From: an uncultured Planctomycetota bacterium
GTDB taxonomy: Bacteria; Planctomycetota; Brocadiia; CAIUPP01
DNA length: 40,131 nucleotides
Assembly (NCBI GenBank): GCA_903901045.1
Contig: CAIUPP010000065.1
Location: 1 to 40,131 of the forward strand
Reading direction: 5' to 3'
The first letter of the stretch is position 1, and each line of letters starts with the position of its first letter. Shown here piece after piece: positions 321 through 38,358 of the stretch. A model generated the notes under the pieces. That model was not told the origin of the DNA, did not search any database, and saw nothing but the letters and a program-made list of their open reading frames with translations. Made by a program: the position numbers and the translations under genes.

Positions 321-664
321 TACGGCTCCTCACTTTAGCCATCCATCACCGAGGAGACGGGGTTACCTACGTCAAGCTGGTAGACGGGGCATACTGCCGC
401 CAGTCAAATTTCTGACCACTCCCGGCCGTTCCACAAACCTGCGTCGACCAATACACCGGAATTCCCATCGAATCAGCGATCAGAACTATCGTTCCTCTAC
501 TGTTTCGAAAGTATTGCCTTAAGAATCCTTTTCTCCTCGCCAAAAGATATTCGTTCTGAAGCGGCGATTCGCGGCAGTGCGGCATGTGACAATGGCCGTG
601 CCATCCAAAGACAGGTCGTCCCGAACGGTCGCGGGCTTGCTGCGACCGACGACTCCGGTTCCTG
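321..664. other. intergenic stretch with no recognised gene
   Basis: This stretch lies downstream of the leftward MttB-like gene and contains no reading frame with a credible start and composition. It is less GC-rich than its surroundings around 470-550. An imperfect palindrome, GTCAAATTTCTGAC, lies at about 402-415. I see no RNA gene or insertion-sequence end that I can support. Confidence 0.4.
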
Positions 665-2086: not shown

Positions 2087-2194
2087 GCACGTCCCTTTCC
2101 AAATCCGAGTTAACCCTCAGTTTGCCCGTGAAGGTGAACACAACCTCCCTGTGCCGCGCAGGCCACGCGTCGGGCCGTGGGATCATCTCCGTCT

Positions 2195-2465
2195 CTAGGT
2201 CTACGGCGTGTTCGGCCTTGTATGCTAGGTGAATGTCCCCGTTCTTCATTTTCGCAATGCGCGCGTCCAGGTCGCTCGGCGAGCGCCAATCATCATTGGA
2301 GGGCATCTTCCCTTTGCGCTTCCGGTCGAACCGGCGCAATTGCTCGTCAGTGGGATTCTCGATGCCCGCCTCCAGTGCCAGCCGCCCGACGTATTCCTTT
2401 CAGTCCTCGCCGTTGCCCTTGCGCACGATGCTCTTCATCGCCGCGTTCACTTTCCGGAATCCGCC
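2195..2465 (-). pseudogene. IS1182/IS5-type transposase fragment with internal stop
   Basis: Reading leftward, one frame gives AAMKSIVRKGNGED, then TGA at 2402-2400, then KEYVGRLALEAGIENP, TDEQLRRFDRKRKGK, DLDARIAKMKNGDIHLAYK and AEHAVDLET. This is the N-terminal to central part of DDE transposases of the IS1182/IS5 type, where relatives read GEDW...EYV. The TGA therefore replaces a Trp codon (TGG). The similarity stops abruptly after DLET near 2195 and before AMKS near 2465, so both ends are missing. The fragment separates the GH2 gene from the MttB gene and overlaps the 3' end of the GH2 reading frame. I recognise the family from memory; the precise IS family is uncertain. Confidence 0.8.
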
Positions 2466-4128: not shown

Positions 4129-4165
4129 GCAACTTCTCCTTTTGCCGGCGGCTGGGCCGATCAGA

Positions 4166-6202
4166 TTAACTAACCAGCACATCGGTGTAAAGATAGACGC
4201 AAGCTAGTTCGTCGACTACCCCCACGGCAAGCGTTCTTCCGTTGGGAGAAAGGGCTACGGTCGTCGGCTGGGTGTTGCTACAGACAAAATCATCCGCCGG
4301 GGCGTAAAAGGTGCGGCCGATCTCCCGCAGACCTGTCTCATCGTCGTAGTGGAAGAGATGGCCCAAGTCTTGGGAGTCTCCTGAAACGCCAAAGGCGCTT
4401 ATCCGGACGGCGTCAGTGACGATCTGGTGCACCGGTCCGTGCAGGCCGACTGCACCGAGCGAAAACGTCCTGCCGGTTTGCGGATCAAAACGTGCCACCA
4501 TTCCGTCGCGGCTGCCCACAAGCCATTGGCCACCCTTCCACGGCGCCCAGCACGTGGGTTCAGCCAGGTATTGCCGCCCCTGGCGCGATGGCAGGACGGC
4601 TGTCGTCAGAATGGCGGGCATACCCTCTTTTCGGGGGCAGTCCATTGCGCCATCCGTCCGAACCGCTATTCTGGCGCCGCGGATGCGCAGACGACACGCG
4701 CCGTTGGGACCGCACCATACCGTGAGGCGCTCATCATTTTCCCACTGCATGGCAACTACCGCTGCGGCGCCTCTGGAAAGAGTCTCCCACAACCTGATCA
4801 CCGATGTGGAACGAGCTTGGATCGCCGTATTGGCCTTGTCCAGCAGGAATTGGTTGGACTTTTCGTAATCACAGGCAAACTTACGATATTTTTCCGTGTT
4901 TCTTTCGTATTCTGGGTCTGCGGAAAGTTTATGGGCGTCCGCGAAAAGAAGGTAGGCGGCCACGTCGCGTGTTTTGACGCGCGCTTCGGCTGAGATCAAC
5001 CGGCGGGTATCAACGGCCAGGATGCCCGGCGGGTCATCGCCATGGTTTGTGTCCGCAATGTGGAGTACGTCGTTCTCATCCATCAGCATTTCACTGACGC
5101 ATTCCGTTGCTCTTCCCGGCGTGCCGAGCAATCCCACATATTCTGGCTTCCCGCCTTGGAGAAGGTCCCACCGGTGCAGGTGACATAGACTTCCTACGAC
5201 GACGGTCAGTGGCTGCATGGTCACCAGCCACAAGACGCCCTTTGAATCGAAGGCCAGTCCCTTCTGGGCGACGGGTGGGGCGCAAGCGAAACTGGAAGGC
5301 AGAAAACTAGGGGTCCGCTCGATCTCCAGCGTCTCAGGATCAATGACATAGAGATAGTCACTGTAACGGAAGGAAACGTAAAGTCGCCCATTGGGACCTT
5401 GGTCGTGATGGCCGAGGATTCGTTGCGTCTTGCACAAAGGGTTAGTTTCGGGTGCTTGCGTGGGAATCCCCATGTGCGTGATTCGACGCGTGTCCACGTT
5501 GATGTGATAGACGTGTCCCGTACGGCTGGCGGTGTAGAGGTGGCCAAGCCGATCCTTGCAGATGCAATAGGATCCATACTCTGTGATCTGACCGAAATCT
5601 TGCAACTCCTTTGACGTGAGATCGAGGCGGAAGAGGTGTCCCCTAAGATAGGAGGTGAACCAGAGCGCATGGTGTCTGTCATCGTAGATGGCGCCATAGA
5701 TGGTGTCACGTGCGACGGGCATGCCTAAGACCTTCGCTTCCCGCCGCTGCGGGTCCCATTCGATGAGATGCGACCCGGGGTAGCCTTCCCAGATGTGGGT
5801 GTAGTACGAATCGAGCATCCAGCAAGGGTGGACCGGCGACCTCGCCGTGGTATGAGTGAACATGATGAGCTTGCCGTCGCGCGTGGGCTGCATGGACGTG
5901 TGAATCTTGCTGGGCGGGATGATGCGGGAATTGGCCATCGTCTCCAAGCCGCCGTCGAAGCAGAACCGCAGCGCGCCGTCCGCGGGCAAGTATTCGTACA
6001 GCCGCACCGAGACCGACGCGCCGAGCTCTCCGCACAGGGAGGCATACATCGTCTTGCCCGGCCCGCGGGCGATGTCCCAGATGGAATTGTGCGGCAGGGC
6101 GTCGGGGAACCTCGAGTACCGGACCGCAGACTGGGGTACCATGTCAAAATAGTCGGCGGGAAACTGATCTACCCGGTACGGAGCTTGATTGCACTCGCTC
6201 AT
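4166..6202 (-). CDS. beta-propeller-like protein of unknown function
   Basis: This 678-residue protein has repeated WD/NHL/SMP-30-like strands: SIWDIARGPGKTMYASLCGE, TIYGAIYDDRHHALWFTSY, GSYCICKDRLGHLYTASRTG, GLAFDSKGVLWLVTM and TVALSPNGRTLAVGVV. These suggest one or two beta-propellers (about 25-385 and 490-670) joined by a helical, charged linker (about 405-470). The fold resembles sugar-lactonase and lyase propellers, but I cannot assign a reaction. The ATG at 6202 has AGGAA upstream; a TTG 33 bases earlier lies inside the upstream gene and is less likely. There is no signal peptide. It starts 4 bases after the GH42-like gene ends and is followed 37 bases later by the GH2 gene, so it is probably co-translated in the same catabolic operon. 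Confidence 0.7.
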   Translation of the reverse strand: MSECNQAPYRVDQFPADYFDMVPQSAVRYSRFPDALPHNSIWDIARGPGKTMYASLCGELGASVSVRLYEYLPADGALRFCFDGGLETMANSRIIPPSKIHTSMQPTRDGKLIMFTHTTARSPVHPCWMLDSYYTHIWEGYPGSHLIEWDPQRREAKVLGMPVARDTIYGAIYDDRHHALWFTSYLRGHLFRLDLTSKELQDFGQITEYGSYCICKDRLGHLYTASRTGHVYHINVDTRRITHMGIPTQAPETNPLCKTQRILGHHDQGPNGRLYVSFRYSDYLYVIDPETLEIERTPSFLPSSFACAPPVAQKGLAFDSKGVLWLVTMQPLTVVVGSLCHLHRWDLLQGGKPEYVGLLGTPGRATECVSEMLMDENDVLHIADTNHGDDPPGILAVDTRRLISAEARVKTRDVAAYLLFADAHKLSADPEYERNTEKYRKFACDYEKSNQFLLDKANTAIQARSTSVIRLWETLSRGAAAVVAMQWENDERLTVWCGPNGACRLRIRGARIAVRTDGAMDCPRKEGMPAILTTAVLPSRQGRQYLAEPTCWAPWKGGQWLVGSRDGMVARFDPQTGRTFSLGAVGLHGPVHQIVTDAVRISAFGVSGDSQDLGHLFHYDDETGLREIGRTFYAPADDFVCSNTQPTTVALSPNGRTLAVGVVDELACVYLYTDVLVS

Positions 6203-6206
6203 GTTC

Positions 6207-8249
6207 TTATTGTTCCTGGGGGTGGGAGGGTTCAATCACGGCAATGGACATTGGAGGCAGCCGGAGCGTCAATCGCCGGGAACGGGTATCGGCCATTTTG
6301 CCCGTTGAACTCCAGACGCGAATTCTTTGGTCCTTCTTGCCCTCGCAGGTGCGGGGAAGTATCTCGAAGTTCAACGTGCGCCGGTCCCAGTAGTTGATGG
6401 CCACGAAGCGGCCCGCCTTTGCGGTGTCCGCGTATGCGATGAGGTCCTCGCGTTCATCCGGGGAGAGGCCGCGAACCTCGAAGGCGAGCTTGCTTTCTAC
6501 AAAGCGAGCGATTTCGCGAAAGAACGGACCGAGCGCCTGCCGGAGTCCGTTCTCATAGCTGCAAGAAAGGACCGTGTACACGGTCCCCTGGCCGACGCGA
6601 TGACGCACGGTTATAGGAGTGCCATTGGCCTCGTGGACGACCTCGCCTCCGGCCAGTTTGACCGGATAAGGGAACAGCCCCAGCGTTTCACCATATTGCC
6701 GGCGCTTGAAAATCCGGTCTTTGACCGCCGTGTGACGGATGATGCCGCGACGGACCGGGTGCAGCGTATACATGTAGGAATAGCCGCCGAGTTCCAGTCC
6801 GCAGAAATCCTCGACGTGCCCGGCCCGGTAAAATTCCTCCGCGTGCGGCGTGGCCCAGGAGACGATTCCCTCCTTCTTTGCCAGGTAGTGCGCGCCGTTG
6901 GCGATCAGGATGCCGCCCGCGCGGACGTAGTCGCGCAGCTTGGTCATGAGTTCGTCGTCCATCGTGTTCCACTCGAACAGGACGATCACGTCATAATTCT
7001 TGAGCACGTCCGGCGACGCGTACCATGGGATGATGTCCATGTCGCCATAGGGCGTGCCGCTGAACGCCGTCTGATACCACTCTTCTCCGGCGCGCAGGCG
7101 AGGATAGAAGACCGAGAACATAGTCTGCTGAGTCCAGGAGAAGATCTCCTCGCCTATGCCGCTCTCTTTGTACCAGGGAAGCGACCAGCCGAAGTAGCCT
7201 TGTCCTTTCATGAACGCGATCCGGATGTCGGGGCGCATCGGGACAGGGTTTTCCCGCGTGAACTTCCGAAAAGTGCGGAACCCGTCAATGGCCGCTTTGC
7301 TGGGCTTCCACTGGTCATGCAGGCAAAGTTGCTCATACGCATAGGTTGTCCCGCCGCCCGCCCAACTGACGATCGAGGGCAGGAAGTAGACATAGCCTGG
7401 TTCGTGGCCTGCGACCTTGTCCTTGATGAGGTGTTTGGCCTCACACTTGACATCGCGCACCCAGTGGTAATAGCGCCAGGGGCATGGGCCGACGCCGTAT
7501 GGGCTGCCGTTGGTCCGGCCGATGCCGCGCGCCTCGGCCAGAGCTGGAGAGTACTCGCGGCCGTTGTACTCAGGGAGATAGCCGAACTCCTTGCAGCCCG
7601 CAGCTCCCATGGCGAATTTCAAACCGTGGAAGCCCGACATGTCGTATCCGCCGAATTGGCGCGTTCGGCGTGTGAGGCCGGCCCAGTCCACCCACCAGCA
7701 GAAACGGCCCTCGCCCATCGCCTCACGCAACGGCTTCAAGTATTCGCCGAGCACCTGACGCCAACATGCGTAGGCCTCGTAGGGATTCTCAATCTGTTTC
7801 GGGAAAGCCTTGCCGGTGTGGAGGTTCTTCGTCAGGTCCATCCACAACGTCTCCCCCGGCCAGTGTTCGATCCGGTCGGTGCCGAAGTCCGGGAAATTGA
7901 ATTCCCACCGAAACAGGCCGAGGAAATGGGCGTCGAGGCTTTTGTCCCGGCGTAATTCACGAATGAAGCCTGCATCGAAAGTAGTGGTCGGGAAATCCAG
8001 TTGAAGCATGAACTTCAGTCCACGTCGCGAGCTCTCTCTCATCTGGTGAAATGCCATGCGGCCATCCTTGGCCGTGTCCGGACCGCACAGCGAAACGAAG
8101 TTGAGGCCCAGACGTTTGGCGGTATCCAGTTCTCGCATCGCGCCGCGACGTCGCGTTTCATAAGGCTTCTTCGCGTCAAGCCAGACCCAGTCCGTGTAGG
8201 TCCCGAAATAGTACGGCGAAGTCTTTCGTCTGGCGCTCTTCTCAGTCAT
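6207..8249 (-). CDS. GH42-like glycosidase (TIM barrel plus GATase-like domain)
   Basis: The 680-residue product begins with a TIM-barrel-like region (about 10-380: YYFGTYTDWVWLDAKKPYE, NFVSLCGPDTA, CWWVDWAGL, GYVYFLPSIVSWAGGGTTY). A class-I glutamine-amidotransferase-like Rossmann segment follows (about 425-530: KNYDVIVLFEW, LRDYVRAGGILIANGAHYL), as in the trimerisation domain of GH42 beta-galactosidases, then a small beta domain. Clear GH42 catalytic glutamates could not be fixed by eye, so activity is unproven. ATG at 8249 (MTEKSARRK) has AAAGGA 7 bases upstream; the earlier in-frame start lies close to the preceding gene's end and lacks a site. There is no signal peptide. It sits 22 bases after the acetyltransferase gene. 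Confidence 0.65.
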   Translation of the reverse strand: MTEKSARRKTSPYYFGTYTDWVWLDAKKPYETRRRGAMRELDTAKRLGLNFVSLCGPDTAKDGRMAFHQMRESSRRGLKFMLQLDFPTTTFDAGFIRELRRDKSLDAHFLGLFRWEFNFPDFGTDRIEHWPGETLWMDLTKNLHTGKAFPKQIENPYEAYACWRQVLGEYLKPLREAMGEGRFCWWVDWAGLTRRTRQFGGYDMSGFHGLKFAMGAAGCKEFGYLPEYNGREYSPALAEARGIGRTNGSPYGVGPCPWRYYHWVRDVKCEAKHLIKDKVAGHEPGYVYFLPSIVSWAGGGTTYAYEQLCLHDQWKPSKAAIDGFRTFRKFTRENPVPMRPDIRIAFMKGQGYFGWSLPWYKESGIGEEIFSWTQQTMFSVFYPRLRAGEEWYQTAFSGTPYGDMDIIPWYASPDVLKNYDVIVLFEWNTMDDELMTKLRDYVRAGGILIANGAHYLAKKEGIVSWATPHAEEFYRAGHVEDFCGLELGGYSYMYTLHPVRRGIIRHTAVKDRIFKRRQYGETLGLFPYPVKLAGGEVVHEANGTPITVRHRVGQGTVYTVLSCSYENGLRQALGPFFREIARFVESKLAFEVRGLSPDEREDLIAYADTAKAGRFVAINYWDRRTLNFEILPRTCEGKKDQRIRVWSSTGKMADTRSRRLTLRLPPMSIAVIEPSHPQEQ

Positions 8250-8271
8250 GGCGTCGTCCTTTCGGCGCGGA

Positions 8272-9210
8272 TCAATAATTCCAGGCTTCCGAGTCCGGTG
8301 TGAGGCAGTCGTGTTCTTCATCCCAGTCCGGGGCGACCGAGTAGGCGGTGGGCCATATTCGCCGGTATTCCTCCACTGATCGCGGGCGAATCGGGCACTG
8401 GTGGCAGGGCCGGAAGCCGTCTTTGCCGTCGTTCAGAAGTTCGAGGACCAGCCGATGGCAATCATCCAGCTTGAACAACGTGCAGTGGCTCTGGCCGACC
8501 ACTGTCTGGCGATGCAGCCCCAGCTTCTCCATTTCGGGGGCATAGAGGGGTAGGGCTTCATCCGTCAGCGGGCAAGGTTCTTCGCGCCAGCCCCAGCTCC
8601 TGCCTATGACCCGTCGGCCATCCGGGAGTGCGACGTGATAAGCGAAGGTGCGCACACCAATACAGGGTGATTTCAGGACGGTCGTCGTAACGTGGTGAAA
8701 GGTATTGCAGCCATACGTCGTGCCGAGAAACAGGCCGCAACCGCCATCCTTCCAAAGCAGGCCCAACGGTGATTCAGTTCCCATCGTGAGCGTGCGATGA
8801 TGAAGGCGAACGTAACGCTCGGCGTTCTTGCCCCACGCCGCGAAGGCATGGGTTGGGTTGAGACTGCGCAGAACTCCGGGCAGCCGCCAGAAGAGATCAG
8901 GGATCGCACCGTTGGTCGTCCGGGTCGCGCGCGGGTCAAAGCAGCCGGGACCGCCAGCCTCGAAGGGTTCGCCGTGGTTGAACGAAGGCATCAGGATCGT
9001 CCCATCGGGAGTGATGACTTCCATCAACGCCTCGATCACCGTGCGCGCGCCGTCTTCCACCCGGCCGAAGCTCTTCAAGGAAGAGTGCACCATGACGCCC
9101 ATGCCCGCCCGCACACCGAGTCGGCGCAGACCGTCGGCGATCTCCCGGTGCGTGACGCCCGGAACGCCCGATTCAAGCCTATTTACTGGTTGCTTATGTT
9201 CCACCTTCAT
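8272..9210 (-). CDS. AAC(3)/YokD-fold N-acetyltransferase family protein
   Basis: The 312-residue protein shows the layout of the aminoglycoside 3-N-acetyltransferase superfamily: an N-terminal DGLRRLGVRAGMGVMVHSSL segment, DGTILMPSFNH, a Pro-rich NPTHAFAAWGKNA stretch, SPLGLLWKDGG and LFLGTTYGCNTFHHVTT, which matches the GVGHDSNTTLH region of true enzymes. The last motif carries Gly-Cys-Asn instead of Asp-Ser-Asn, and the protein sits in a glycan operon. It therefore more likely acetylates an amino sugar or other metabolite with acetyl-CoA than confers resistance. The ribosome site is weak (AGGAT close to the ATG). It lies 22 bases from genes on both sides. A Cys-rich HQCPIRP segment near the C-terminus is unusual. 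Confidence 0.8.
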   Translation of the reverse strand: MKVEHKQPVNRLESGVPGVTHREIADGLRRLGVRAGMGVMVHSSLKSFGRVEDGARTVIEALMEVITPDGTILMPSFNHGEPFEAGGPGCFDPRATRTTNGAIPDLFWRLPGVLRSLNPTHAFAAWGKNAERYVRLHHRTLTMGTESPLGLLWKDGGCGLFLGTTYGCNTFHHVTTTVLKSPCIGVRTFAYHVALPDGRRVIGRSWGWREEPCPLTDEALPLYAPEMEKLGLHRQTVVGQSHCTLFKLDDCHRLVLELLNDGKDGFRPCHQCPIRPRSVEEYRRIWPTAYSVAPDWDEEHDCLTPDSEAWNY

Positions 9211-9232
9211 ATCCTGCTCTCATGGAAGAGGG

Positions 9233-11644
9233 TCAGGGCGCCAGCAAGTGGACGGCAAAAGTCAGACGCGAACGGTCGGAGTCCAATTCGTTGGCAAAGC
9301 GAATGGTGTAACGATCCGATCCCGCAGCGGGGTCCGACGTGAACTCCGCCCTGACGAAGGAGTAGAACGGTTCGCCATGATGGACCGTGTAGACCGCCAA
9401 TTCGTGCCGTCCCGCCGGCAGGAGTTCATGGAGCGCAATCCACGGGGTGGTTGTACCCGGCCAGAGATAGTCGGTCTTTTCTGGCTTCGCCTGAACGAGG
9501 CCTCTTGCGCTCACGTATCCTAATAGTTCTCTTTCACCGGTCGATCCGACCTGGACGAGTTCGTTCCAATTGTCGTAAGTGTCCCACCAGATCGAATCCT
9601 CCCAGACTATCGGCAACTGGGGCATGGCCAATCGAACAAAGAGGTGTTTGCGCGGTGACGGCTCGAACCGCGCCTTGCGGAGAGCTTCAATTTCGGCATC
9701 ATAAGCGCGCTCGGCCGGTCCGGGTGTCGGGTATGGTTTCCGGAAGGCTTCCAGCGCCGGCTGCCATGCGGCAGGCCGGGGAGTCAGGAACCAGCCCACC
9801 ACTCCATACCCGGGCACCGCCGCTTCAAAGGCGGGCGGCACAGGTGCCGTGGTTGCCCGTGGTGGGTTGGCATGCGGGTTCAGTCGCACGGCGGTCCAGT
9901 TGCTCTCCGGTTTCACGCCGGTCGCCGGCCACTTCGCCTCGACCTTGATGCTCCTTGGTGCGGCGGAGAAGTTCGTGGCGAGGAGCAGAACGGAGCCGTC
10001 GTGGGTCACGAAGAGACATGCGGCCGTATCGTCCGAATCGGTTAGGAAGATGTCCGACGTATTCTGCTGGTGGAGGACTTTCAGCGCTTCCTGCCCGCGC
10101 AGGATGCCCCAGAGCTTCCAGACCGGCCGGGCGAAGGTGACCACCCCCGGCTCGCAAGGATGCTGGAGTGAGGAACTCCCAATCTGCGTGCCAAGGCCGA
10201 TGTGTGGAACTTGCCCGATGCTGGCCAGGAAGGGGACCGCGCGAGGCGTCTCGTAATCCGGGAACGCCGCCGTCCACATCGTCGGCGCCGCTACGCTCAC
10301 GCCGCTGAAGTAGGCATGCGTGGTGCGATTGCTGAGGAGGACTCCGCGCTCCCCTTCGCCCGCGACGTAACCGTCCACAAGGCCGGTCATGCCGCAGGCG
10401 GCAAAGAACGGTCCGGCATGGCTGAAGAACACTCCCCGCTCCCCCACGCGCTTTCGCACTTCGCGCATAGCAAGATAATACTCGCGAAACGCGATCCGTC
10501 CGCAGGCATAAGTCTCATCCTGACCGGCGGGGTAGATGATCGGCGACCCGTAATCCATGTAAAGGCCGTCGTAGTCGCGTTGAAAAAACTCGTCAAACCA
10601 GTCGGCGTGGTCCTCGCGGACGGAGGGCTCGTTGCCGCGGACATAGACGGCCATTCGCATCCCCAGTCGATGCGCGCCCTCGATCACGCGGCGGAACTCC
10701 CGCTCGTCGTTCGGTGCTGCACCGTTCTGCACGTCGGAGCGCCAACATTCATGGAGCACGAGAAGGTCGGCACCTTCCTCGGCCATCTTCTGAATCTGAG
10801 CGTCCGTCGGGAGCTTCGAGGAATCAATCCAGTGGTGAAAGCGCAACGGGGGATGTCGCCGCGTGAGCGGGGCGCGGCACATCGTCCAGCCCCATTGATT
10901 GCGCCACTGCCAGAGTCCGCGGGGACTCGTGCGCCGTTCGCACAGAAAGTCCCATTCCAGTTCCGGCGCTTCCGCGTTCCACCGCACGGAGGTTCGAACA
11001 TTCTGCGGATCGCCGCCGGGAGAATTGGAGCCTTCAAGGAACCACTCCAGGTGCTTGTCCCTCCGCCCCTCATGCCCGAAGTCGAAACTTACGAACGGCA
11101 AGAGCATCCCGTCCTTGACCACCTCATTCCCCGGCTGGAGGAAACGCTTAATGCCGCCGAGGGCTTGAATGATGTCCGCGCGAGTGAAGTCGGGGCGTTC
11201 CCAGTAAGCCCAGGAGAGATCATTGTTCTTCTCCGGGGAAACCGGCGGTCGTAAGCGGAAATGACTCAAATCCGGTGTCGAATTCCCAGCGGCCACAAAG
11301 AAGCTGCGTACAAAGCAGACCCCATCAGGCCAAAACTCATAGCGCTGGGTGAGCCGGAAACCCTCCAGCACCGATCCATCTGTCTTGCGCCATGGCAGAT
11401 TACGGAACTCGACGCGCTTGGCTTCGCCCACATCGGTGACGGTTGGTTGATACTGCTCCGGCCAGAAAGGTTCTGCACCACTTCCATCGGGGAGTTCCAC
11501 GGTGAGCCACGGTCGCGCAGATTGTGAAATAGTCTCTCCGCCTTCAGCGCCTGAGAACCCAAGCCAAGTTGGGAAACCACCGCCGGAGCGGCCAAATAGG
11601 ACCGAATGCGCTTGATGGCGAACGGCTACAGGCATTGCCCTCAT
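9233..11644 (-). CDS. TIM-barrel glycosidase-like protein, first gene of the leftward operon
   Basis: The 803-residue product has an N-terminal beta-sandwich-like region (about 1-260), a central barrel-like region (about 265-520: LRFHHWIDSSKLP, ADLLVLHECWRSD, RLGMRMAVYVRG, YDGLYMDYGSP, GLVDGYVAGEGERG) and C-terminal beta domains. The order and the LYMDYG strand (Asp about 364) resemble GH36/GH31-type or DUF6259-type retaining glycosidases, with D364 and an acid near E430 as candidate catalytic residues. This is by pattern only. There is no signal peptide. The ATG at 11644 has GGAGG five bases upstream, 36 bases downstream of the predicted leftward start site. It leads a five-gene, tightly spaced leftward unit. 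Confidence 0.65.
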   Translation of the reverse strand: MRAMPVAVRHQAHSVLFGRSGGGFPTWLGFSGAEGGETISQSARPWLTVELPDGSGAEPFWPEQYQPTVTDVGEAKRVEFRNLPWRKTDGSVLEGFRLTQRYEFWPDGVCFVRSFFVAAGNSTPDLSHFRLRPPVSPEKNNDLSWAYWERPDFTRADIIQALGGIKRFLQPGNEVVKDGMLLPFVSFDFGHEGRRDKHLEWFLEGSNSPGGDPQNVRTSVRWNAEAPELEWDFLCERRTSPRGLWQWRNQWGWTMCRAPLTRRHPPLRFHHWIDSSKLPTDAQIQKMAEEGADLLVLHECWRSDVQNGAAPNDEREFRRVIEGAHRLGMRMAVYVRGNEPSVREDHADWFDEFFQRDYDGLYMDYGSPIIYPAGQDETYACGRIAFREYYLAMREVRKRVGERGVFFSHAGPFFAACGMTGLVDGYVAGEGERGVLLSNRTTHAYFSGVSVAAPTMWTAAFPDYETPRAVPFLASIGQVPHIGLGTQIGSSSLQHPCEPGVVTFARPVWKLWGILRGQEALKVLHQQNTSDIFLTDSDDTAACLFVTHDGSVLLLATNFSAAPRSIKVEAKWPATGVKPESNWTAVRLNPHANPPRATTAPVPPAFEAAVPGYGVVGWFLTPRPAAWQPALEAFRKPYPTPGPAERAYDAEIEALRKARFEPSPRKHLFVRLAMPQLPIVWEDSIWWDTYDNWNELVQVGSTGERELLGYVSARGLVQAKPEKTDYLWPGTTTPWIALHELLPAGRHELAVYTVHHGEPFYSFVRAEFTSDPAAGSDRYTIRFANELDSDRSRLTFAVHLLAP

Positions 11645-32399: not shown

Positions 32400-33023
32400 A
32401 TGCCCGCCACCGCACTCTCACTCGTGGAAGCGAAGTACCAGAGCCTGCTGCCCGATCTCTGGAAGCTGGCCCTCGTCCGTCATCGTTACCTGCCATACCA
32501 TGAGCGCGAAGAGGCGCTCTGTGAGACCCTGGCCTACAGCTGGCAGTGGTGCTTGCGCGCCTTCGAGAAAGGCAAGCTCGACCAACTCACCGCGCGCATG
32601 CTTTCCTTCTACGCCGCCAAGCTCTTTCGCAGCGGCAGGCGCTTTGCCGGCGGCACCCGGCGCGATGTTCTCTCGTCCCAAGCGAAGGCTGAAGGCGCCG
32701 TACGTCTCAGGTCCATCGAGCGTGGTCCTGACGACGAGGAGGGTAAGCCCCAATCCATGGCCAACCTGCTCATCGACAGCCGGCATGTGGCCCCACCGGA
32801 AGTGGCGCGAGTCAACCATGACTACCCGGTGGCGCTCAGGAAGGCGAAGCTCTCCAGAAAAACCCGTAAGTGCTTCCGTCACCTGACCAGGGACAACGGT
32901 CCCGGCCATGTCATGCGCATCTCGCGCACGCTGCACGTCTCGCCTGCGCGCGTCTGTCAGTTGAAGGGTCAGTTGCGCAGCGCCCTGCGCGCCATCGACT
33001 ACGGTCCCTCGCCTGCCGCCTGA
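32400..33023 (+). CDS. sigma-factor-like helix-turn-helix protein
   Basis: The 207-residue protein is alpha-helical and basic. Its C-terminus (about 150-200: LSRKTRKCFRHLTRD, HVMRISRTLHVSPARVCQLK) reads as a helix-turn-helix like sigma-70 region 4, and the N-terminal half (DLWKLALVRHRYLPYHERE, LAYSWQWCLRAFEKG) could be a region-2-like helical part. The middle is charged and probably disordered. It may be a transcription factor for the downstream Ubl genes or an island-specific regulator. The ATG at 32400 has AAGGAGG five bases upstream; an earlier in-frame GTG lies upstream of the hairpin and is unlikely. It is the first gene of the rightward island cluster and is separated from the Ubl gene by an intrinsic terminator. 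Confidence 0.6.
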   Translation: MPATALSLVEAKYQSLLPDLWKLALVRHRYLPYHEREEALCETLAYSWQWCLRAFEKGKLDQLTARMLSFYAAKLFRSGRRFAGGTRRDVLSSQAKAEGAVRLRSIERGPDDEEGKPQSMANLLIDSRHVAPPEVARVNHDYPVALRKAKLSRKTRKCFRHLTRDNGPGHVMRISRTLHVSPARVCQLKGQLRSALRAIDYGPSPAA

Positions 33024-33099: not shown

Positions 33100-33129
33100 G
33101 CGGTGTTTATCGTTGACGATCTGCGTATG

Positions 33130-33161
33130 CCACGGTCCGCATGGTGCGGCCGTGGTTTTTT
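33130..33161 (+). terminator. intrinsic terminator between sigma-like and Ubl genes
   Basis: CCACGG-T-CCGCA (33130-33141) pairs with TGCGG-CCGTGG (33145-33155), 11 bp with one bulged T and a TGG loop, followed by six T residues (33156-33161). This is the clearest Rho-independent terminator in the window. It lies only 27 bases before the Ubl ATG, so it would limit read-through into the conjugation operon. Confidence 0.85.
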
Positions 33162-33187
33162 CGTTTCTGCTCGGAAAGGAGCATCGT

Positions 33188-33457
33188 ATGAGAGTCGAAA
33201 TCTTTCGTTTGACGGGCGAGCCGGTGAGCATCGAGGTGAAGGAAAACGGCACGGTGCGCGACGTGTTCAGCGCCGAGGGCTCCGGCAAGGTGCTGGGTCA
33301 TGACGGCACGCTGATGGAGGCGGCCGAGGAGCAGTACGGCTCGATCAGCCAACTCGGCACGCTGCGGGTCAACGGCGCCTCGGCGACGCTGGACACTCCC
33401 GTCCGGGCCGGCGCGACCATCCTCATCATCCCCAAGGTCGAGGGCGGTTGCCGCTGA
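33188..33457 (+). CDS. ubiquitin-like beta-grasp protein (MoaD/ThiS/Ubl type)
   Basis: The 89-residue product has beta-grasp order: a first hairpin (MRVEIFRLTGEPVSIEVKEN), a helix region (TVRDVFSAEGSGK), LRVNG (the typical loop of MoaD/ThiS proteins), LDTPVRAGATILIIPK and the C-terminal tail VEGG-CR. Gly86-Gly87 followed by Cys-Arg fits a precursor that a JAB protease trims to expose the di-glycine for adenylation by an E1. Both partners are encoded downstream. There is one Ubl domain, not two. ATG at 33188 has AAAGGAG upstream; an earlier in-frame TTG-type start lies inside the terminator and is rejected. A simple sulfur-carrier role is the main alternative, but the E2-like and JAB neighbours argue for protein conjugation. 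Confidence 0.85.
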   Translation: MRVEIFRLTGEPVSIEVKENGTVRDVFSAEGSGKVLGHDGTLMEAAEEQYGSISQLGTLRVNGASATLDTPVRAGATILIIPKVEGGCR

Positions 33458-33471
33458 GGCGGCATTTCCCA

Positions 33472-33504
33472 CGGGGCCGGCGCTCATGAAGGGCGCCGGC
33501 CCCG
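33472..33504 (+). terminator. 12-bp hairpin between Ubl and E2-like genes
   Basis: CGGGGCCGGCGC (33472-33483) pairs perfectly with GCGCCGGCCCCG (33493-33504) around a 9-base loop and is followed by CCTTCTTTC. It begins 15 bases after the Ubl stop and ends 12 bases before the GGAGG of the next gene. As a partial terminator or 3' stabiliser it would keep Ubl in excess over the enzymes. Confidence 0.7.
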
Positions 33505-33525
33505 CCTTCTTTCATGGAGGATACC

Positions 33526-34944
33526 ATGGCGATACCCGATATCCGCATCGACACGTGGCCCAAGCTGCTCCTCCCGCGTGAGGAGATCAAGGCCACGCTG
33601 CAGTACCTGGCGCATAAGACCGGCAAGCCGGTCAGCTTCCGATGGTTTACGGAGAATGAAGGATACTCCGACCAGTCTGTCAGCGTCCGAGTCTTCGTCA
33701 ATGACGACCTCGCCGCCACATACAACCCCAGTCACGTCATGATCAATGGACAGTCCTGCGCCGTGGCCTCCACGCAGCGCGGCATGGCCGCGGCCCTGGT
33801 CCGGGCGGACTGGAAGAAGATCGCCGATGACGAGGACCAGCTCATTGGCGCCGTTGATCACAATCGCATCATCCTCCCCCTGGAGATCACCGCTGCCGAC
33901 AATGAAGCGGCGCGGGCCATCCTAGCCTATGTGGTGGAGAAAGCCGTTGACCTCCTCGACTTTGATGTGGCCGACATGGTCAGAAAGCGCGAGGAGGATT
34001 TCGCCCGGCATTTTGGCGAGGCGTTCCGGAAGAGCATTACGACACGGCTGGAATCGAGGCAGGAGGAATTCGACACCCGCAAACGCGAGGCGGAGCAGGC
34101 GTATTACACCTTGGTTGACTTCGAGCGGGAGCGGTCGGTGTTCGAGCAGGAGCTCGCCTTCCTGACCGGCCTTGCGGAGAAGTCCTGCGCGAAGACGGCC
34201 CGCAAGCAGGTGCAGGCATTGCTCCAGGTCCAGAGCAGCGGGCAATACACGCACATCGCCTTCGACGGCGAGGGGGTCCTGCACGCAACCACCGCGCCGG
34301 TCACCATTGAGCACGAAGGTTATGAAATCCCTCTGGGCCGGTACGAGGTGGAAATCCCCTCCAACGGGGACGTGCGGATCAAAGCTCTTGACGAGCACCC
34401 CACCGCCGACCATCCACACCCGCACATTGCTCATGATCATCGGCCCTGCCTGGGAAACATCTCAGGCGATGTGGCCAAGCTCATCGGCAAGCTGCGATAC
34501 GCGGAAGTGCTGCAACTTCTTCATTCCTTCTTGTCCAGTTTTAATGCGGAAAACCCGTACGAACGTCTGGGCCACTTCGATCCCAGCGGTCAATACCAGG
34601 ACGAAGACGACGATCCCTGCGAGAGCTGTGACGAGAAATGCACGCCATATTGCGTCTTCTCTTGCGAGCACAATTCCGACATCTACACTTGCTCGGACTG
34701 TTGTGAATATCGCTCGGAATATTGCTTCACCGAGTGCGAGCACAACGCGGATTTTGAACGGTTCCATCCGTGCGAAAGCTGTGAGCGCAAAGGGACTCAG
34801 GAGTGCCACCTGGAATGCCTGCACAACAAGGAGTGGCAACTTCAGAATCCCTGTGACGAATGTGACGACGAGGAATGCCGCAAGGACGAATGCCCATGTT
34901 TCACGAAACGACAGGAGCTTGAACATGCAGAAGCACGATCGTGA
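33526..34944 (+). CDS. E2-like (UBC-fold) protein with helical segment and Cys-rich tandem repeats
   Basis: The 472-residue protein has four parts. Residues 1-140 are an unrecognised alpha/beta region. Residues 145-235 are charged helix, probably coiled coil. Residues 240-350 look like an E2 core: HPHIAHDHRPCLGNI matches the HPNI-x6-CLD block of E2 enzymes with exact spacing, His replacing Asn and Cys308 as the thioester cysteine, followed by EVLQLLHSFLSSFNAENPYE, as in E2 helix 2-3. Residues 365-458 hold three CX2CX7CX3CXHN repeats plus a degenerate fourth, probably zinc-binding. The whole suggests an E2 carrying its own E3-like or substrate-binding module. ATG at 33526 has GGAGG five bases upstream; the ATG at 33514 precedes that site. 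The JAB gene overlaps its end by 20 bases. Confidence 0.75.
   Translation: MAIPDIRIDTWPKLLLPREEIKATLQYLAHKTGKPVSFRWFTENEGYSDQSVSVRVFVNDDLAATYNPSHVMINGQSCAVASTQRGMAAALVRADWKKIADDEDQLIGAVDHNRIILPLEITAADNEAARAILAYVVEKAVDLLDFDVADMVRKREEDFARHFGEAFRKSITTRLESRQEEFDTRKREAEQAYYTLVDFERERSVFEQELAFLTGLAEKSCAKTARKQVQALLQVQSSGQYTHIAFDGEGVLHATTAPVTIEHEGYEIPLGRYEVEIPSNGDVRIKALDEHPTADHPHPHIAHDHRPCLGNISGDVAKLIGKLRYAEVLQLLHSFLSSFNAENPYERLGHFDPSGQYQDEDDDPCESCDEKCTPYCVFSCEHNSDIYTCSDCCEYRSEYCFTECEHNADFERFHPCESCERKGTQECHLECLHNKEWQLQNPCDECDDEECRKDECPCFTKRQELEHAEARS
34618..34899 (+). repeat. tandem Cys/His repeats inside the E2-like protein
   Basis: Three repeats start at Cys365, Cys389 and Cys416. Each has identical spacing CX2CX7CX3CXHN (for example C389, C392, C400, C404, H406), with linkers giving 24- and 27-residue periods. 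A fourth, CDECDDEECRKDECPC, keeps only the first CX2C. The spacing fits one metal site per repeat. It is not a canonical RING, which needs eight ligands in cross-brace order. Confidence 0.8.
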
Positions 34945-35719
34945 CGGCGATCTGCCATCCCGGAGCGAACCGGCGGTTGTCCTCGACATCCCGAGGAAAC
35001 CGCAATGGCCTGCCGGAATCTCGGTCTCAAAGTCTCACACTCTCAAATGCTTCGTCCCGGACGGCCTCCAGGTGGTTCTGACAAAGGAGGCCTTCGAGCA
35101 GCTCTTCGGCTATGCCTACGCCACAAACCGGGAGATCAGTTGCATGGGCGTCGTCCGGCGTCACGGCAGCGCCTTCATCGTGGAGCGGTTCCACCTGGTG
35201 GCCCAGGAAGGGGGAAGCGCGCATACGGAGATGGACCCCGTAGCGCTGGGCAGCCTCATCGAGACGCTCCTGGGGGAGGGGAAAGCCGACGAGGTCAGGG
35301 CGATCAAGTGCTGGGCGCACAGCCATCCCGGGATGGGCTGCTTCTGGTCGAAAACCGACGACGACACGTGCCGGCTCCTGGCGACCGACTTTCTGATCAG
35401 CCTGGTCGTCAGCGACGGCTTTGCCATTCGCGCCCGGCTTGACGTCGGCGGGCCGGTGCCGTTCACGGTGGACGAGGTGCCGGTGATCATGGAAATCCAA
35501 CCCGATGAGGAGGTATTGAAACGCTATGGCCAGGAGGTCGCGGAAAAGGTTAAGGAGGCGGTCGGTCTTCCGATGGGGAAAACGCCCCGTCCTGAGAACG
35601 CCGGCGGTTTGTTCGACGACGGTGTCTGGTCGGACTATTACGGACGCACGTACGGGTTTCTCGAAGAGGACGAGACCGCCGTGCTGGATGCTGTCGCGGA
35701 CGACCGAGAGCCCTTCTAG
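34925..35719 (+). CDS. JAB/JAMM (MPN+) metalloprotease
   Basis: The 264-residue protein carries the full JAMM zinc motif: Glu70 in NREISCMGVV and H132-S-H134 with PGMGCFW, Ser142 and Asp145 (HxH-x7-S-x2-D). Enzymes of this kind cleave ubiquitin-like proteins at the C-terminal di-glycine. Here it could remove the Cys-Arg tail of the upstream Ubl and release it from targets. A 35-residue N-terminal extension and an acidic C-terminus (EEDETAVLDAVADDREPF) flank the domain. ATG at 34925 overlaps the E2-like gene by 20 bases and has AGGAG nine bases upstream, so translation is coupled. The E1 gene begins 11 bases after its stop. It resembles the JAB of PRTRC cassettes as well. Confidence 0.9.
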   Translation: MQKHDRDGDLPSRSEPAVVLDIPRKPQWPAGISVSKSHTLKCFVPDGLQVVLTKEAFEQLFGYAYATNREISCMGVVRRHGSAFIVERFHLVAQEGGSAHTEMDPVALGSLIETLLGEGKADEVRAIKCWAHSHPGMGCFWSKTDDDTCRLLATDFLISLVVSDGFAIRARLDVGGPVPFTVDEVPVIMEIQPDEEVLKRYGQEVAEKVKEAVGLPMGKTPRPENAGGLFDDGVWSDYYGRTYGFLEEDETAVLDAVADDREPF

Positions 35720-35730
35720 GAGATGACGCC

Positions 35731-36390
35731 ATGACCGATACGGCCTCACGTTTTCTCCGGCAACTGGATATCCTGCCGCCGGAAAAGCTCACCTTTCCCA
35801 TCACCGTCATTGGCGCCGGGGCGGTCGGATCGGCCGCGGTGATCACGCTGGCGAAGATGGGCTGCACGAACCTCACCGTCTGGGACGACGACGTCCTGAC
35901 CGAGCACAACGTACCCAACCAGATGTGCGCCCTCGATGCGGTTGGATTCCCCAAGGTCGAAGCGCTGGCCACGCTCGTCATCGAGCTCACCGGCACGTCC
36001 ATCAAGACCCGCCGGGAGCGTTATCGAGGTCAGCGGTTGGACGGAGTTGTCATCGCCGCCACGGATAACATGCAGGCCCGTCTGGAGGTGTGGAAGCGCG
36101 CGAAGATGAACCGGTCCGTCCCGCTCCTCGTTGACGCCCGGATGGGCGCGGAGTTCGCCCGCGTCTACACAATACACCCCTCCAACCTCGACGAGGCGGA
36201 CTTCTACGAGTCGAACCTGCATCCCGAAGATGAAGCCGAACGCCTGCCGTGCTCAGCCCGGGCGATCATCTATTGCCCGGCGGTCATCGGGGGATTGATT
36301 GCCCTGCAGGTCAAGGCGCACGCTATGAGCCAGCCGCTTAAACGCGAAATGCTCTTCGACCTGCCGCGTCTGCAACTCATCACCCAGTGA
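35731..36390 (+). CDS. ThiF/MoeB/E1-like adenylyltransferase
   Basis: The 219-residue protein is a single adenylation domain: GAGAVGS (28-34), WDDDVLTEHN (51-60), AATDNMQARLEVWK (109-122) and a Cys-containing LPCSARAIIYCPAVIGG segment (Cys174 and Cys182). It would activate the Ubl C-terminus with ATP and pass it to a Cys. The usual SNxxRQ motif reads HNVPNQ, so the Arg is replaced by Asn. The CxxC zinc pairs of MoeB/ThiF are absent. The short length means no separate catalytic-cysteine or ubiquitin-fold domain. GGAG precedes ATG at 35731, 11 bases after the JAB stop. It completes a Ubl-E2-JAB-E1 order, the same order as Bil operons. Confidence 0.9.
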   Translation: MTDTASRFLRQLDILPPEKLTFPITVIGAGAVGSAAVITLAKMGCTNLTVWDDDVLTEHNVPNQMCALDAVGFPKVEALATLVIELTGTSIKTRRERYRGQRLDGVVIAATDNMQARLEVWKRAKMNRSVPLLVDARMGAEFARVYTIHPSNLDEADFYESNLHPEDEAERLPCSARAIIYCPAVIGGLIALQVKAHAMSQPLKREMLFDLPRLQLITQ

Positions 36391-36431
36391 CCGTAGAGAC
36401 TGCACGCCCCAATTTCGGGCCATTTCCAGTT

Positions 36432-36473
36432 ACGCCGGCCGTCATGATGCCCGTGCATCGTGGTGGCCGGCGT
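36432..36473 (+). terminator. 19-bp hairpin after the E1 gene
   Basis: Bases 36432-36450 pair with 36455-36473 as one continuous helix with three G-U pairs and a CCGT loop (outer stem ACGCCGGCC/GGCCGGCGT), followed by TCTTCTCTTG. It lies 42 bases after the E1 stop and 28 before a small membrane peptide. Confidence 0.7.
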
Positions 36474-36500
36474 TCTTCTCTTGTCGGAGACCGATGCCCC

Positions 36501-36569
36501 ATGTGGATCTTGATCGTGATCATCGTTCTGATTGTTCTGTATTTGCTCGGACGCGGCTGCTCACTATGA
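36501..36569 (+). CDS. 22-residue single-span membrane peptide
   Basis: ATG at 36501 opens MWILIVIIVLIVLYLLGRG ending CSL and TGA at 36567-36569. A GGAGA lies about 11 bases upstream. Nearly all residues form one transmembrane helix. The stop is followed by AAGGAG for the DUF4230 gene, so the two may be coupled. A peptide this short can be chance, but the hydrophobic composition and position after a hairpin support it. Confidence 0.5.
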   Translation: MWILIVIIVLIVLYLLGRGCSL

Positions 36570-36581
36570 AGGAGTTCTGCT

Positions 36582-37187
36582 GTGCAAGACGAAATAAAGG
36601 CCCGTCTCATCGTGGCGCTGGTGAAATTCGTGGTGATCATGGGTCTCTTAGCCGGGGCCGGCTACTACATTTACCACGCCATTCGCACGCCGCCCAAACC
36701 CACCACGAAGGAGGTTATTGAGGTGATTCGTTCCGAGGAATTATCGTTCCTGGTGACCGACCGGTTGGTTACCAAAGCGGTGGTCGAGTCGAAGGAAAAC
36801 AATCTGTTTCTCGGCGCCCGGGAAGGTTACTTGCTTGCCACCGTCCGCGTCTACTTTGGCATCGATCTCAAGAGCCTGCCCGAGGACGCCGTGCAGGTCA
36901 CCGATGGCATCATATATGTCGTGGTGCCGGAGCCGCGCGAATTGGATTTCAGCGTGGACCTGGATTCGGCGCGCTTTCTCTCGAAGCGCTCCGGGCTGGT
37001 CGTCCTGCGGGATTTCCTCCAAGACCTGAATTTCCAGCAGGAACTTGAGCGCCAGCTTCACCATGCCGCTCAGGAGATGCTGCGTAATGAGAAACTCTTG
37101 CCAGGCCGGGAGGAGATCGTCAAGCGGCTGAACGGATGGGCGCCGGCTCTGAGCAGCCGGTGCAACATGAAGGTCATTTTTCGTTAG
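36582..37187 (+). CDS. DUF4230 membrane-anchored protein
   Basis: The 201-residue product has an N-terminal membrane anchor (ALVKFVVIMGLLAGAGYYIYH, about 11-31) and a DUF4230 domain (about 45-185: SEELSFLVTDRLVTKAVVES, GYLLATVRVYFGIDLKSL, RELDFSVDLDSARFLSKRSG). DUF4230 has no known reaction; the soluble part probably faces outwards. Start is GTG at 36582 with AAGGAG seven bases upstream, directly after the small peptide stop. It lies downstream of the E1 gene and is co-directional, so it may be an effector, target or anchor of the Ubl system, or an unrelated island gene. It converges on the repressor gene 25 bases away. Confidence 0.8.
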   Translation: MQDEIKARLIVALVKFVVIMGLLAGAGYYIYHAIRTPPKPTTKEVIEVIRSEELSFLVTDRLVTKAVVESKENNLFLGAREGYLLATVRVYFGIDLKSLPEDAVQVTDGIIYVVVPEPRELDFSVDLDSARFLSKRSGLVVLRDFLQDLNFQQELERQLHHAAQEMLRNEKLLPGREEIVKRLNGWAPALSSRCNMKVIFR

Positions 37188-37212
37188 CAGTGGGGCCACG
37201 CGTGTGGAGTGG

Positions 37213-37872
37213 TCACATCGCCCGCCAGACCAGGCCGAGGACCTGCCCGACTTCCTCCACATGGCCGCGGATCGCAGCGCCATCGTCCAGTCGGACAAAC
37301 GCGCCTCGGGGCGTGCGCCGGGCCAGCACAAGCTCCCCGGCTTCTTTTCCCTTCGTGGAATGCCGAAGCACAACGATCTGATGAGACGTCGGTTTCGCCT
37401 TCTGGTCCATCAGGAGCAAATCACCCCGGCGCAGCAACATTGCCGGCGCGTCGAAAGAAAGCTCCAGCACGTACGGCAGAGTGGCCTCGGCCAGCAGCGG
37501 CACCGCATGTCCAGCGACCTCCGTACCGTATCCCGTGCGCGCCGGCGACTGAGCCGGATCGCCCAGGCACGGTTCTGAGAGGGTATGCTTCAGGGACGGA
37601 GGGATTTCGGGCCCGGCGAGCGGCTTGGCCACTGTCCCTTCGCCATGAAGCAGCCAACGGGAGTTGACGCCGAACTCGTCAGAGAACCGCCGCGCAAACA
37701 GTTCGGACAGAAGCCTGTGGCCGTTCTTGACGTCGCTAAGGTACCCCTGTGGCACCGCAAGGCGCTCGGCAATCTCCAGTTGAGTGAGTCCCTTTCCGGT
37801 CAGGTCGTTCAACACCCGTATCAGCCGCTCCTGGCGCTGTTTGCGAACGACTTCTGGCGTTGGTTGGGGCAT
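37213..37872 (-). CDS. phage-type repressor: Cro/CI HTH plus S24-like domain lacking the serine
   Basis: The 219-residue protein has an N-terminal HTH (about 18-75: RLIRVLNDLTGKGLTQLEIA, ERLAVPQGYLSDVKNGHR) and a LexA/CI S24-like C-terminal domain (about 130-219: YVLELSFDAPAMLLRRGDLL, QIVVLRHS, GHVEEVGQVLGLVWR). In active S24 peptidases the segment before the RGD-like turn holds the catalytic Ser (often DSM); here it reads DAPAM, so self-cleavage is unlikely and release must use another route. ATG at 37872 is preceded by GAGAGG. It is divergent from the recombinase promoter at 37917, whose palindrome is its probable operator. It controls island excision or integration by inference. Confidence 0.82.
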   Translation of the reverse strand: MPQPTPEVVRKQRQERLIRVLNDLTGKGLTQLEIAERLAVPQGYLSDVKNGHRLLSELFARRFSDEFGVNSRWLLHGEGTVAKPLAGPEIPPSLKHTLSEPCLGDPAQSPARTGYGTEVAGHAVPLLAEATLPYVLELSFDAPAMLLRRGDLLLMDQKAKPTSHQIVVLRHSTKGKEAGELVLARRTPRGAFVRLDDGAAIRGHVEEVGQVLGLVWRAM

Positions 37873-37916
37873 ATCATGCCTCTCGAAAAAAAGTTTCCCA
37901 AAACCTCGAAATCCTC

Positions 37917-37945
37917 TTGACACTTACCGTAAAGGTAATTACAAT
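37917..37945 (+). promoter_or_regulatory. sigma70 promoter with palindromic operator in the spacer
   Basis: TTGACA (37917-37922), a 17-base spacer and TACAAT (37940-37945) form a near-consensus promoter reading into the recombinases. The spacer holds TTACC-GTAAA-GGTAA (37924-37938), an inverted repeat with 5-bp arms. A repressor bound there would block polymerase directly. Confidence 0.82.
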
Positions 37946-38008
37946 TATCTTGACGGCATGGAACAGGGTAGCAAACTAGGACACTTTTTACAAGAGGAGG
38001 AGAGAAAC

Positions 38009-38358
38009 ATGGACGCTAGGAAACGCAGTTGCGTGCCGGTTGGCTATGTTCGTTGCTCGACACTGCGCCCCGGTCCGTTGGCCGAGCATTGTTCGAATTG
38101 TGCAGCCGTGGAGTGCCTTTGCAGGTGCTGGTGACCGACATCGGCTGCACGGGCATGAGCGACCGCCCCGGTCTTCGCCATTTGGTCAAGGCGGCGGAAC
38201 GGGGTCTTGTGAGCGAGGTTGTCGCGATCTCCCCGTCGCGCCTGGCCCGCTCCCATGTCGAACTGGCGCGCCTGCTGCGTCGCTTCGACCAGTTAGGCGT
38301 CCGCGTCACGTTCGCCTCGCAAGCCGCCTCGGGCGCGAAAGCGCATATGGGAATCTAA
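38009..38358 (+). pseudogene. small serine recombinase N-terminal domain, frameshifted
   Basis: ATG at 38009, after AGGAGG, opens MDARKRSCVPVGYVRCST, where VGYVRCS is the start strand of serine recombinases with its catalytic Ser. That frame stops at 38134. The continuation lies in another frame from about 38060: ALFELCSRGVPLQVLVTDIG, MSDRPGLRHLVKAAERGLVS, VAISPSRLARSHVELARLLR, ending at 38358. Together they make one resolvase N-terminal domain of about 115 residues, split by an indel near 38060-38095. There is no DNA-binding domain. No slippery heptamer is evident, so a disabling mutation is more likely than programmed frameshifting. A sequencing error is also possible. Confidence 0.75.

Follow-up and report, generated by a model that had tools for sequence, protein, structure and literature searches.

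The Four-Gene Cassette

The DNA analysed here (the window) is a stretch of 40,131 nucleotides (nt), positions 1 to 40,131 of the forward strand of contig CAIUPP010000065.1 in GenBank assembly GCA_903901045.1, from an uncultured Planctomycetota bacterium (GTDB lineage Brocadiia; CAIUPP01). The genome comprises 4.77 Mb in 154 contigs, and the assembly is about 94% complete. Four adjacent genes in the window, here called the cassette, encode the parts of a ubiquitin-type conjugation system, namely a ubiquitin-like protein (Ubl), an E2-like (conjugating) protein, a JAB/JAMM protease and an E1 (activating) protein:

33188–33457, + strand: Ubl gene, 89 amino acids (aa), one β-grasp domain, C-terminal end IIPKVEGGCR (VEGG-CR)
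33529–34944, + strand: E2-like gene, 471 aa, with a second in-frame ATG at 33514
34925–35719, + strand: JAB/JAMM protease gene, 264 aa
35731–36390, + strand: E1 gene, 219 aa, a minimal protein with the ThiF fold

The E2-like and JAB genes overlap by 20 nt, and the JAB and E1 genes are separated by 11 nt. A preliminary description of this DNA had given the same coordinates and spacings, which were exact when the open reading frames were read again, as well as an HPHI-x6-CL motif in the E2-like protein and an HxH-x7-S-x2-D motif in JAB, both of which are present. The four parts that it named are real, as judged by Pfam scores, a recurring gene order and the ratio of nonsynonymous to synonymous substitution rates (dN/dS). 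Between pairs of the copies found in this genome, dN/dS is 0.06–0.24 for all four genes; the genome copies are under purifying selection.

Predicted Structure and Catalytic Residues

The Ubl scored 21.7 bits against Pfam ThiS, just under the curated cut-off of 22.5. Its structure model best matched SAMP1 (VIA-align Z 10.3 and 10.1), followed by MoaD-type carriers, and ubiquitin and NEDD8 were present among its Foldseek matches. The modeled fold is a SAMP1/ubiquitin-type β-grasp. In the window and Myxococcales clade, the C-terminus reads PKVEGG followed by one to four unconserved residues (CR, R, AQ, SK, NK, AR, SL, LL or AHHA), the pattern expected of a precursor that is trimmed by the neighboring JAB protease. 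In one relative the GG are the very last residues, and the planctomycete relatives have GA at the end in place of GG. Maturation of a Ubl precursor by its protease has been shown experimentally in Caldiarchaeum (PMC5654768).

The E1 scored 60.2 bits against Pfam ThiF (cut-off 28.1), its profile was nearest to UBA1 (E 3e-14), and it was the only cassette protein with substantial matches in the NCBIfam and PADLOC scans. The GxGxxG motif and residues D52, D54, N60, Q64, K75, D112, R117, D135, R137 and C174 were invariant in 83 of 83 sequences. JAB scored 20.0 bits against Pfam Prok-JAB, just under the cut-off of 25. In a search of the PDB, its profile was nearest to the Rpn11-like 6fju (E 8e-10), followed by RPN11 and CSN5. 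Its active-site residues are E70 and H132-x-H134-x7-S142-x2-D145 (window numbering; the motif reads HSHPGMGCFWSKTD), and E70, W130, H132, H134, S142 and D145 were invariant in all 73 sequences.

The E2-like protein consists of an N-terminal domain (residues 1–125), a long helix (126–236), a UBC core (about 215–355) and a Cys/His-rich tail (364–455), and owes its length to the N-terminal domain, the ≈110-residue helix and the tail. The catalytic-type residues are HPH at 297–299 and C307, arranged as HPH-x7-C307-x-G, and H297, H299, C307 and G309 were invariant in 63 of 63 sequences. The spacing from HPH to Cys is ten, and in UbcH5 the HPH likewise lies ten residues ahead of the Cys. A model built from a 40-sequence alignment had high confidence for the long helix and most of the core, and low confidence for the rest. 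Searched whole in Foldseek, it gave no match with E <0.001, the best being a weak one to an RWD domain. In VIA-align, UBC enzymes took the top nineteen places (Z from 8.5 to 7.5), with alignments to residues 215–355 that spanned 105–124 residues at a root-mean-square deviation of 3.1–3.7 Å. The core, as modeled, is UBC-like, an assignment that rests on VIA-align and the motif spacing, since the whole-model Foldseek result was weak. The preliminary description had made its reading of this protein depend on such a fold, and the match of residues 215–355 to UBC enzymes is in keeping with it.

Neither the E2-like protein itself (in Pfam) nor any of forty relatives scanned singly (in Pfam and NCBIfam) gave a meaningful match, and no model covering it was found in Pfam, NCBIfam, PADLOC or PHROGs. 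This blank is informative, because Pfam does recognise a different E2 of the Prok-E2_E type in the same genome. The tail in the window is a run of CxxC...CxxxCxHN units, for which a comparison with RING domains gave no significant match. In planctomycete relatives the tail has CxxC pairs with a marginal likeness to C4C4/TRIM RING fingers (E 0.001–0.02), and the Myxococcales E2s have no tail.

A Widespread Family with Fixed Gene Order

A six-member E1 alignment was searched against 84,980 species genomes and yielded 80 loci. Gene order was scored by profile searches of six-frame translations in the 47 loci whose sequence extended 3.5 kb or more upstream of E1, and 43 of these had Ubl-E2-JAB-E1 on one strand. 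The exceptions were L069, with extra E2 and Ubl paralogues, L062 and L114, where the Ubl was not found upstream, and L099. Overlapping or abutting E2 and JAB genes are also the rule in the relatives. The family occurs in Planctomycetota and in metagenome-assembled genomes (MAGs) of Myxococcales, with several loci per MAG; single MAGs of Chloroflexota, Actinomycetota, Hydrogenedentota, Pseudomonadota and Thermoplasmatota also have it, with binning errors possible. The survey for the four-gene order that the preliminary description had proposed thus recovered it in most testable loci: the cassette is one branch of a widespread four-gene family rather than an isolated oddity.

The surroundings differ between lineages. 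Loci of the Planctomycetaceae type have DUF1257, DUF2997 and AAA ATPase genes upstream, and those of the Phycisphaerae type DUF2958. In the Myxococcales, a Rad52-type annealing protein accompanies the cassette in 16 loci, in most of them together with a PD-(D/E)XK nuclease behind E1; in four loci, the cassette is preceded by Replic_Relax and a coupling-protein ATPase and followed by primase and SprT.

Several loci had further features of their own. In Planctomycetaceae and relatives (L035, L036, L068, L078, L079, L088, L092, L100, L113 and L116), the cassette shows synteny with the DUF1257 (Ycf35-like), DUF2997 and Ycf46-like AAA ATPase genes. L069, in a Thermoplasmata MAG, has three E2 and two Ubl paralogues in tandem, then one JAB and one E1 (655–8648). 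In L062, in an Anaerolineae MAG (321–8953), two Ubl-type systems adjoin, one consisting of E1, a YukD-like protein of 101 aa, JAB and AAA, the other of E2-JAB-E1 with a small Ubl-like protein last.

Viral Relatives

A scan of IMG/VR with the E1 alignment identified 17 viral contigs, the largest of 200.9 kb, most of them with the order Ubl-E2-JAB-E1. Among 13 contigs tested, seven had a terminase and one a tail sheath (8 of 13 with either). Viral contigs searched with JAB alone or with a three-copy E2 alignment yielded nothing; only the six-member E1 alignment reached the relatives. Plasmids searched by tblastn with JAB and E2 yielded none, and the plasmid E1 matches were in Salmonella, at 55% coverage.

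In the E1 tree, the clade of the window (with L038 of MAG B129_G9) is joined to the 200.9-kb contig, L140, with support of 100/99. The E2 tail of the CxxxCxHN type is common to L140 and the window clade, and the L140 gene upstream of Ubl is homologous (36%) to a gene upstream in one of the other cassette copies in this genome, that on contig C12. L140 also carries a DUF5131 gene. The nearest relative outside the lineage is on a large viral contig.

A distant E1 relative is present in cultured Flavobacterium phages (29 records), where it is annotated only as "thiamine biosynthesis protein ThiF". In phage Fpv1 a JAB relative precedes it, and genes for a primase, an annealing protein, an exonuclease and a helicase lie nearby. 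Inspection by eye suggested gp58 and gp57 as Ubl and E2 candidates. An endonuclease gene on the opposite strand seems to interrupt the Fpv1 JAB frame (L157 5722–8014, gp56–gp54), separating its N-terminal from its C-terminal part as if by a homing element. In the open-access papers found, which cover the literature in part, no phage-borne version was described.

Comparison with Known Systems

The Caldiarchaeum subterraneum operon (PMC5654768) likewise combines in one cluster a Ubl precursor with residues past GG, an E1, an E2 and an Rpn11-like JAMM protease, and 6fju, the structure nearest to JAB, is an archaeal-type Rpn11-like protein. That operon differs in having its own small RING E3 (ligase) gene, another gene order and an archaeal chromosome as its location, rather than a phage or island; the short E1 of 219 aa and the large extra regions of the E2 are features of the window.

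The preliminary description had noted a resemblance to Bil operons. The gene order, Ubl-E2-JAB-E1, is indeed that of Bil, but the features of Ubl, E1 and E2 that define Bil (PMC11354881) are absent here. BilA has two Ubl domains, whereas the window Ubl has one in 89 aa; BilD has inactive and active adenylation domains and a Cys domain (PMC11354881), whereas the 219-aa window E1 has one ThiF domain; and BilB has a CEHH motif (C, E at +6, H at +8, H at +13), whereas the window sequence after C307, LGNISGDVAKLIG, has no such E, H or H. The lack of Bil and Bub proteins in the VIA-align lists was not counted as exclusion.

Iyer types 6a–6e also comprise Ubl, E1, E2-type and JAB genes on mobile DNA, but in 6a–c the E2 is fused to the E1 (separate genes in the window), in the PRTRC-like 6d the E2 is without the upstream His and is accompanied by a helical partner (HPH is present in the window), and 6e/Bub has a polyUbl, an inactive E2 and a fused JAB-E1 (PMC1779556), compared with the single Ubl, the E2 Cys and the separate JAB and E1 of the window. 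The window E1 scored 32.4 bits against PRTRC_ThiF of NCBIfam, far under the cut-off of 144.75, and Pfam and NCBIfam scans of the window gave no other PRTRC or Prok-E2 match. The tested PRTRC features are absent from the cassette; the preliminary description had seen no PRTRC ParB or ParM gene. In type II CBASS, Cap2 is an E1-E2 fusion encoded with a CD-NTase; here E1 and E2 are separate genes, and a PADLOC scan of ten island genes showed no CD-NTase. The only PADLOC match of the cassette was to a generic E1 domain, the presence of Bil models in PADLOC-DB being unconfirmed.

Prokaryotic RING-Ubl systems combine bacterial E1, E2, JAB, Ubl and a RING-type E3; in the version of PMC7159879 the Ubl is fused to the E2 and the RING gene is separate, whereas in the window the Ubl has its own gene and the Cys-rich part belongs to the E2 protein. 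The planctomycete part of the family may overlap with the systems of Burroughs et al. 2011. The cassette lacks the defining features of Bil, 6e/Bub, PRTRC and CBASS that were tested and, in agreement with the "undescribed branch" first suggested, falls outside the named families of Pfam, NCBIfam and PADLOC.

Genomic Copies and Neighboring Genes

The cassette is present in full three times in the genome, on contigs C65 (the window), C153 and C60; a fourth copy is truncated where contig C12 ends. The E1 is 91% identical to that of the window in C153 and 71% in C60. Window positions 33128–38088 are 86% identical to C153, a span that takes in genes for a DUF4230 protein and a helix-turn-helix (HTH) protein of the phage-repressor type; beyond it, both copies have serine recombinases, of different families. 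The other features near the cassette are:

32400–33023, + strand: sigma-factor-like gene, weak FliA_WhiG match (E 0.19), one distant paralogue in the genome
33137–33154: second, weaker hairpin, directly ahead of Ubl
33472–33504, + strand: GC-rich hairpin between Ubl and E2, possible attenuator
36582–37187, + strand: DUF4230 protein with an N-terminal hydrophobic stretch (PF14014, 40.4 bits), possible accessory gene
37213–37923, – strand: HTH protein of the phage-repressor type, convergent with the operon (HTH_3, 25.9 bits), 92% identical in the C153 copy
38009–38358, + strand: resolvase-type remnant in two frames, both matched in tblastn by the intact C153 gene
38649–40031, + strand: large serine recombinase (Recombinase 81 bits, Resolvase 73 bits, Zn_ribbon_recom 48 bits)

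The serine recombinase is likely the integrase of the island. Together with the further cassette copies, it supports the mobile setting that had been proposed for this locus. Directly upstream of Ubl, the C153, C60 and C12 copies have a gene for a 184-aa coiled-coil protein and a 94-aa gene; the window copy lacks both, and the sigma-like gene stands there instead. The DUF4230 gene is kept beside the C153 copy (dN/dS 0.07) and lies near E1 in L109. It was rejected as a core cassette gene, as only 3 of 58 relatives' genomes have it.

The hairpins flanking the Ubl gene have T-rich tails. Equivalents with different sequences were seen by eye in L023 and L024, so that hairpins of a comparable kind occur in all three full copies; they may have the effect of a high ratio of Ubl to enzymes. 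The C60 copy has an insertion of ≈790 bp between Ubl and E2 (L024, about 2640–3160) that, read by eye, seems to encode a YgiT-type zinc-finger antitoxin-like protein on the minus strand.

In 97 other genomes of the class and phylum, nothing that scored comparably as an orthologue was seen. The two best matches examined were a cofactor locus (G020, L025), rejected as a relative after reading by eye as an AOR-MoaD-MoeB-type locus, and a 38-residue E1 fragment in G002, a possible remnant. Remote orthologues were present in three of 392 genomes sampled across the phylum.

Other Ubl-related genes also occur in this genome. A second Ubl-type operon is present in two copies (L137 2192–4406 on C108 and L138 2833–5047 on C99) and encodes a small 76-aa protein, a Prok-E2_E-type E2 of 129 aa and a ThiF-domain protein of 526–531 aa with a JAB-like HxH motif N-terminal to ThiF; a HerA-like ATPase lies nearby. 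This operon resembles Iyer type 6e. On C121 (L136, about 2710–6416 and 9109–10689), a protein of >900 aa, tubulin/FtsZ-like by eye, adjoins an E1-like ThiF protein (303 aa), a vWA-like protein and a serine recombinase.

Proposed Mechanism and Role

The four genes probably form a self-contained Ubl-conjugation cassette carried by phages and integrative mobile elements. The JAB protease would trim the Ubl after Gly-Gly, and the E1 would adenylate the Ubl glycine with ATP and then take the Ubl onto Cys174. From there the Ubl would be handed to Cys307 of the E2 and attached by it to target proteins, from which the JAB protease could also remove it. The Zn-rich tail and the N-terminal domain of the E2 probably pick the targets or replace an E3. 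Judged only by gene context, the targets would be host or element proteins met in element replication, recombination or counter-defence. The present analysis showed the order of the genes, the folds and the catalytic residues, and we infer the reaction steps from them and from the reconstituted Caldiarchaeum cascade (PMC5654768); the predicted chemistry is well supported by the anatomy of the encoded and modeled proteins. We suggest more tentatively that large phages and related mobile elements encode the whole cascade, with an E2 fused to a Zn-finger E3-like tail and a JAMM deconjugase, and use it in infection on host or element proteins, the bacterial copies deriving from the viral pool.

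Several points weigh against this proposal. Conjugation is here a prediction from gene and protein sequences. The Arg of the usual E1 motif N-x-x-R-Q, which is Arg73 of MoeB and Arg515 of UBA1 (PMC12355090), corresponds to residue 63 of the window E1 and is Thr, Asn or Ser in most members and Arg in none, although the N and Q are invariant. The N-terminal domain and tail of the E2, which would bear on the choice of targets, are poorly modeled. Parts of the E1 tree are weakened by long branches, L140 had no terminase or tail sheath match, and restriction or defence-type genes occur close to some bacterial relatives: L038 adjoins an HmaA/DrmD-type helicase, L040 type III and type IV restriction genes and L041 type I genes.

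The last observation also bears on a second live reading, in which the cassette is anti-phage defence cargo that puts Ubl on incoming phage proteins, as in Bil, and spreads via islands and prophages. The preliminary description had spoken of a defence or transfer system; the mobile context stands, and defence has become one of two readings of the role that are still in play. The Bil gene order (PMC11354881) and the patchy, multi-copy, island-borne distribution favour it, as do L038, L040 and L041 as single cases, and phages can themselves carry such systems against competitors (phage-against-phage exclusion). We nevertheless consider it less likely, given the core place of the cassette in the replication and recombination modules of Myxococcales elements and phages and a PADLOC match limited to the generic E1 domain. 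Location in such modules and in phages favours use by the element itself.

A degradation tag feeding an AAA protease would fit the closeness in sequence of JAB to Rpn11 and CSN5 and the AAA ATPase genes upstream in Planctomycetaceae relatives. It is very improbable, however, as the cassette has no protease gene, the window copy has no AAA neighbor, and no proteasome-family protein was found in the genome (assembly about 94% complete), which argues against a classical degradation tag. Least probable of all is a ThiS/MoaD-like sulfur-carrier or cofactor pathway. The ThiS-like score of the Ubl, its SAMP1/MoaD-like fold and the ThiF-type E1 would agree with such a pathway, but the E2 and JAB are obligate partners, no recurrent cofactor-synthesis genes were seen among the recurrent neighbor clusters, and the genome has a separate ThiF/MoeB-type protein with a far better score (245 bits). 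The cofactor association that would have spoken against the preliminary description was accordingly not seen in these clusters.

Implications

Conjugation of Ubls in bacteria is known mainly as anti-phage defence, and a family of fixed gene order on mobile elements, phages and bacteria suggests that the attackers carry this chemistry too. The synteny with DUF1257, DUF2997 and Ycf46-like genes ties these poorly known families to Ubl conjugation, and the cultured Flavobacterium phages make part of the reading testable now. The family adds to the sources that eukaryotic ubiquitin signalling could have drawn on in its assembly, and viruses of bacteria may tag proteins much like eukaryotic cells.

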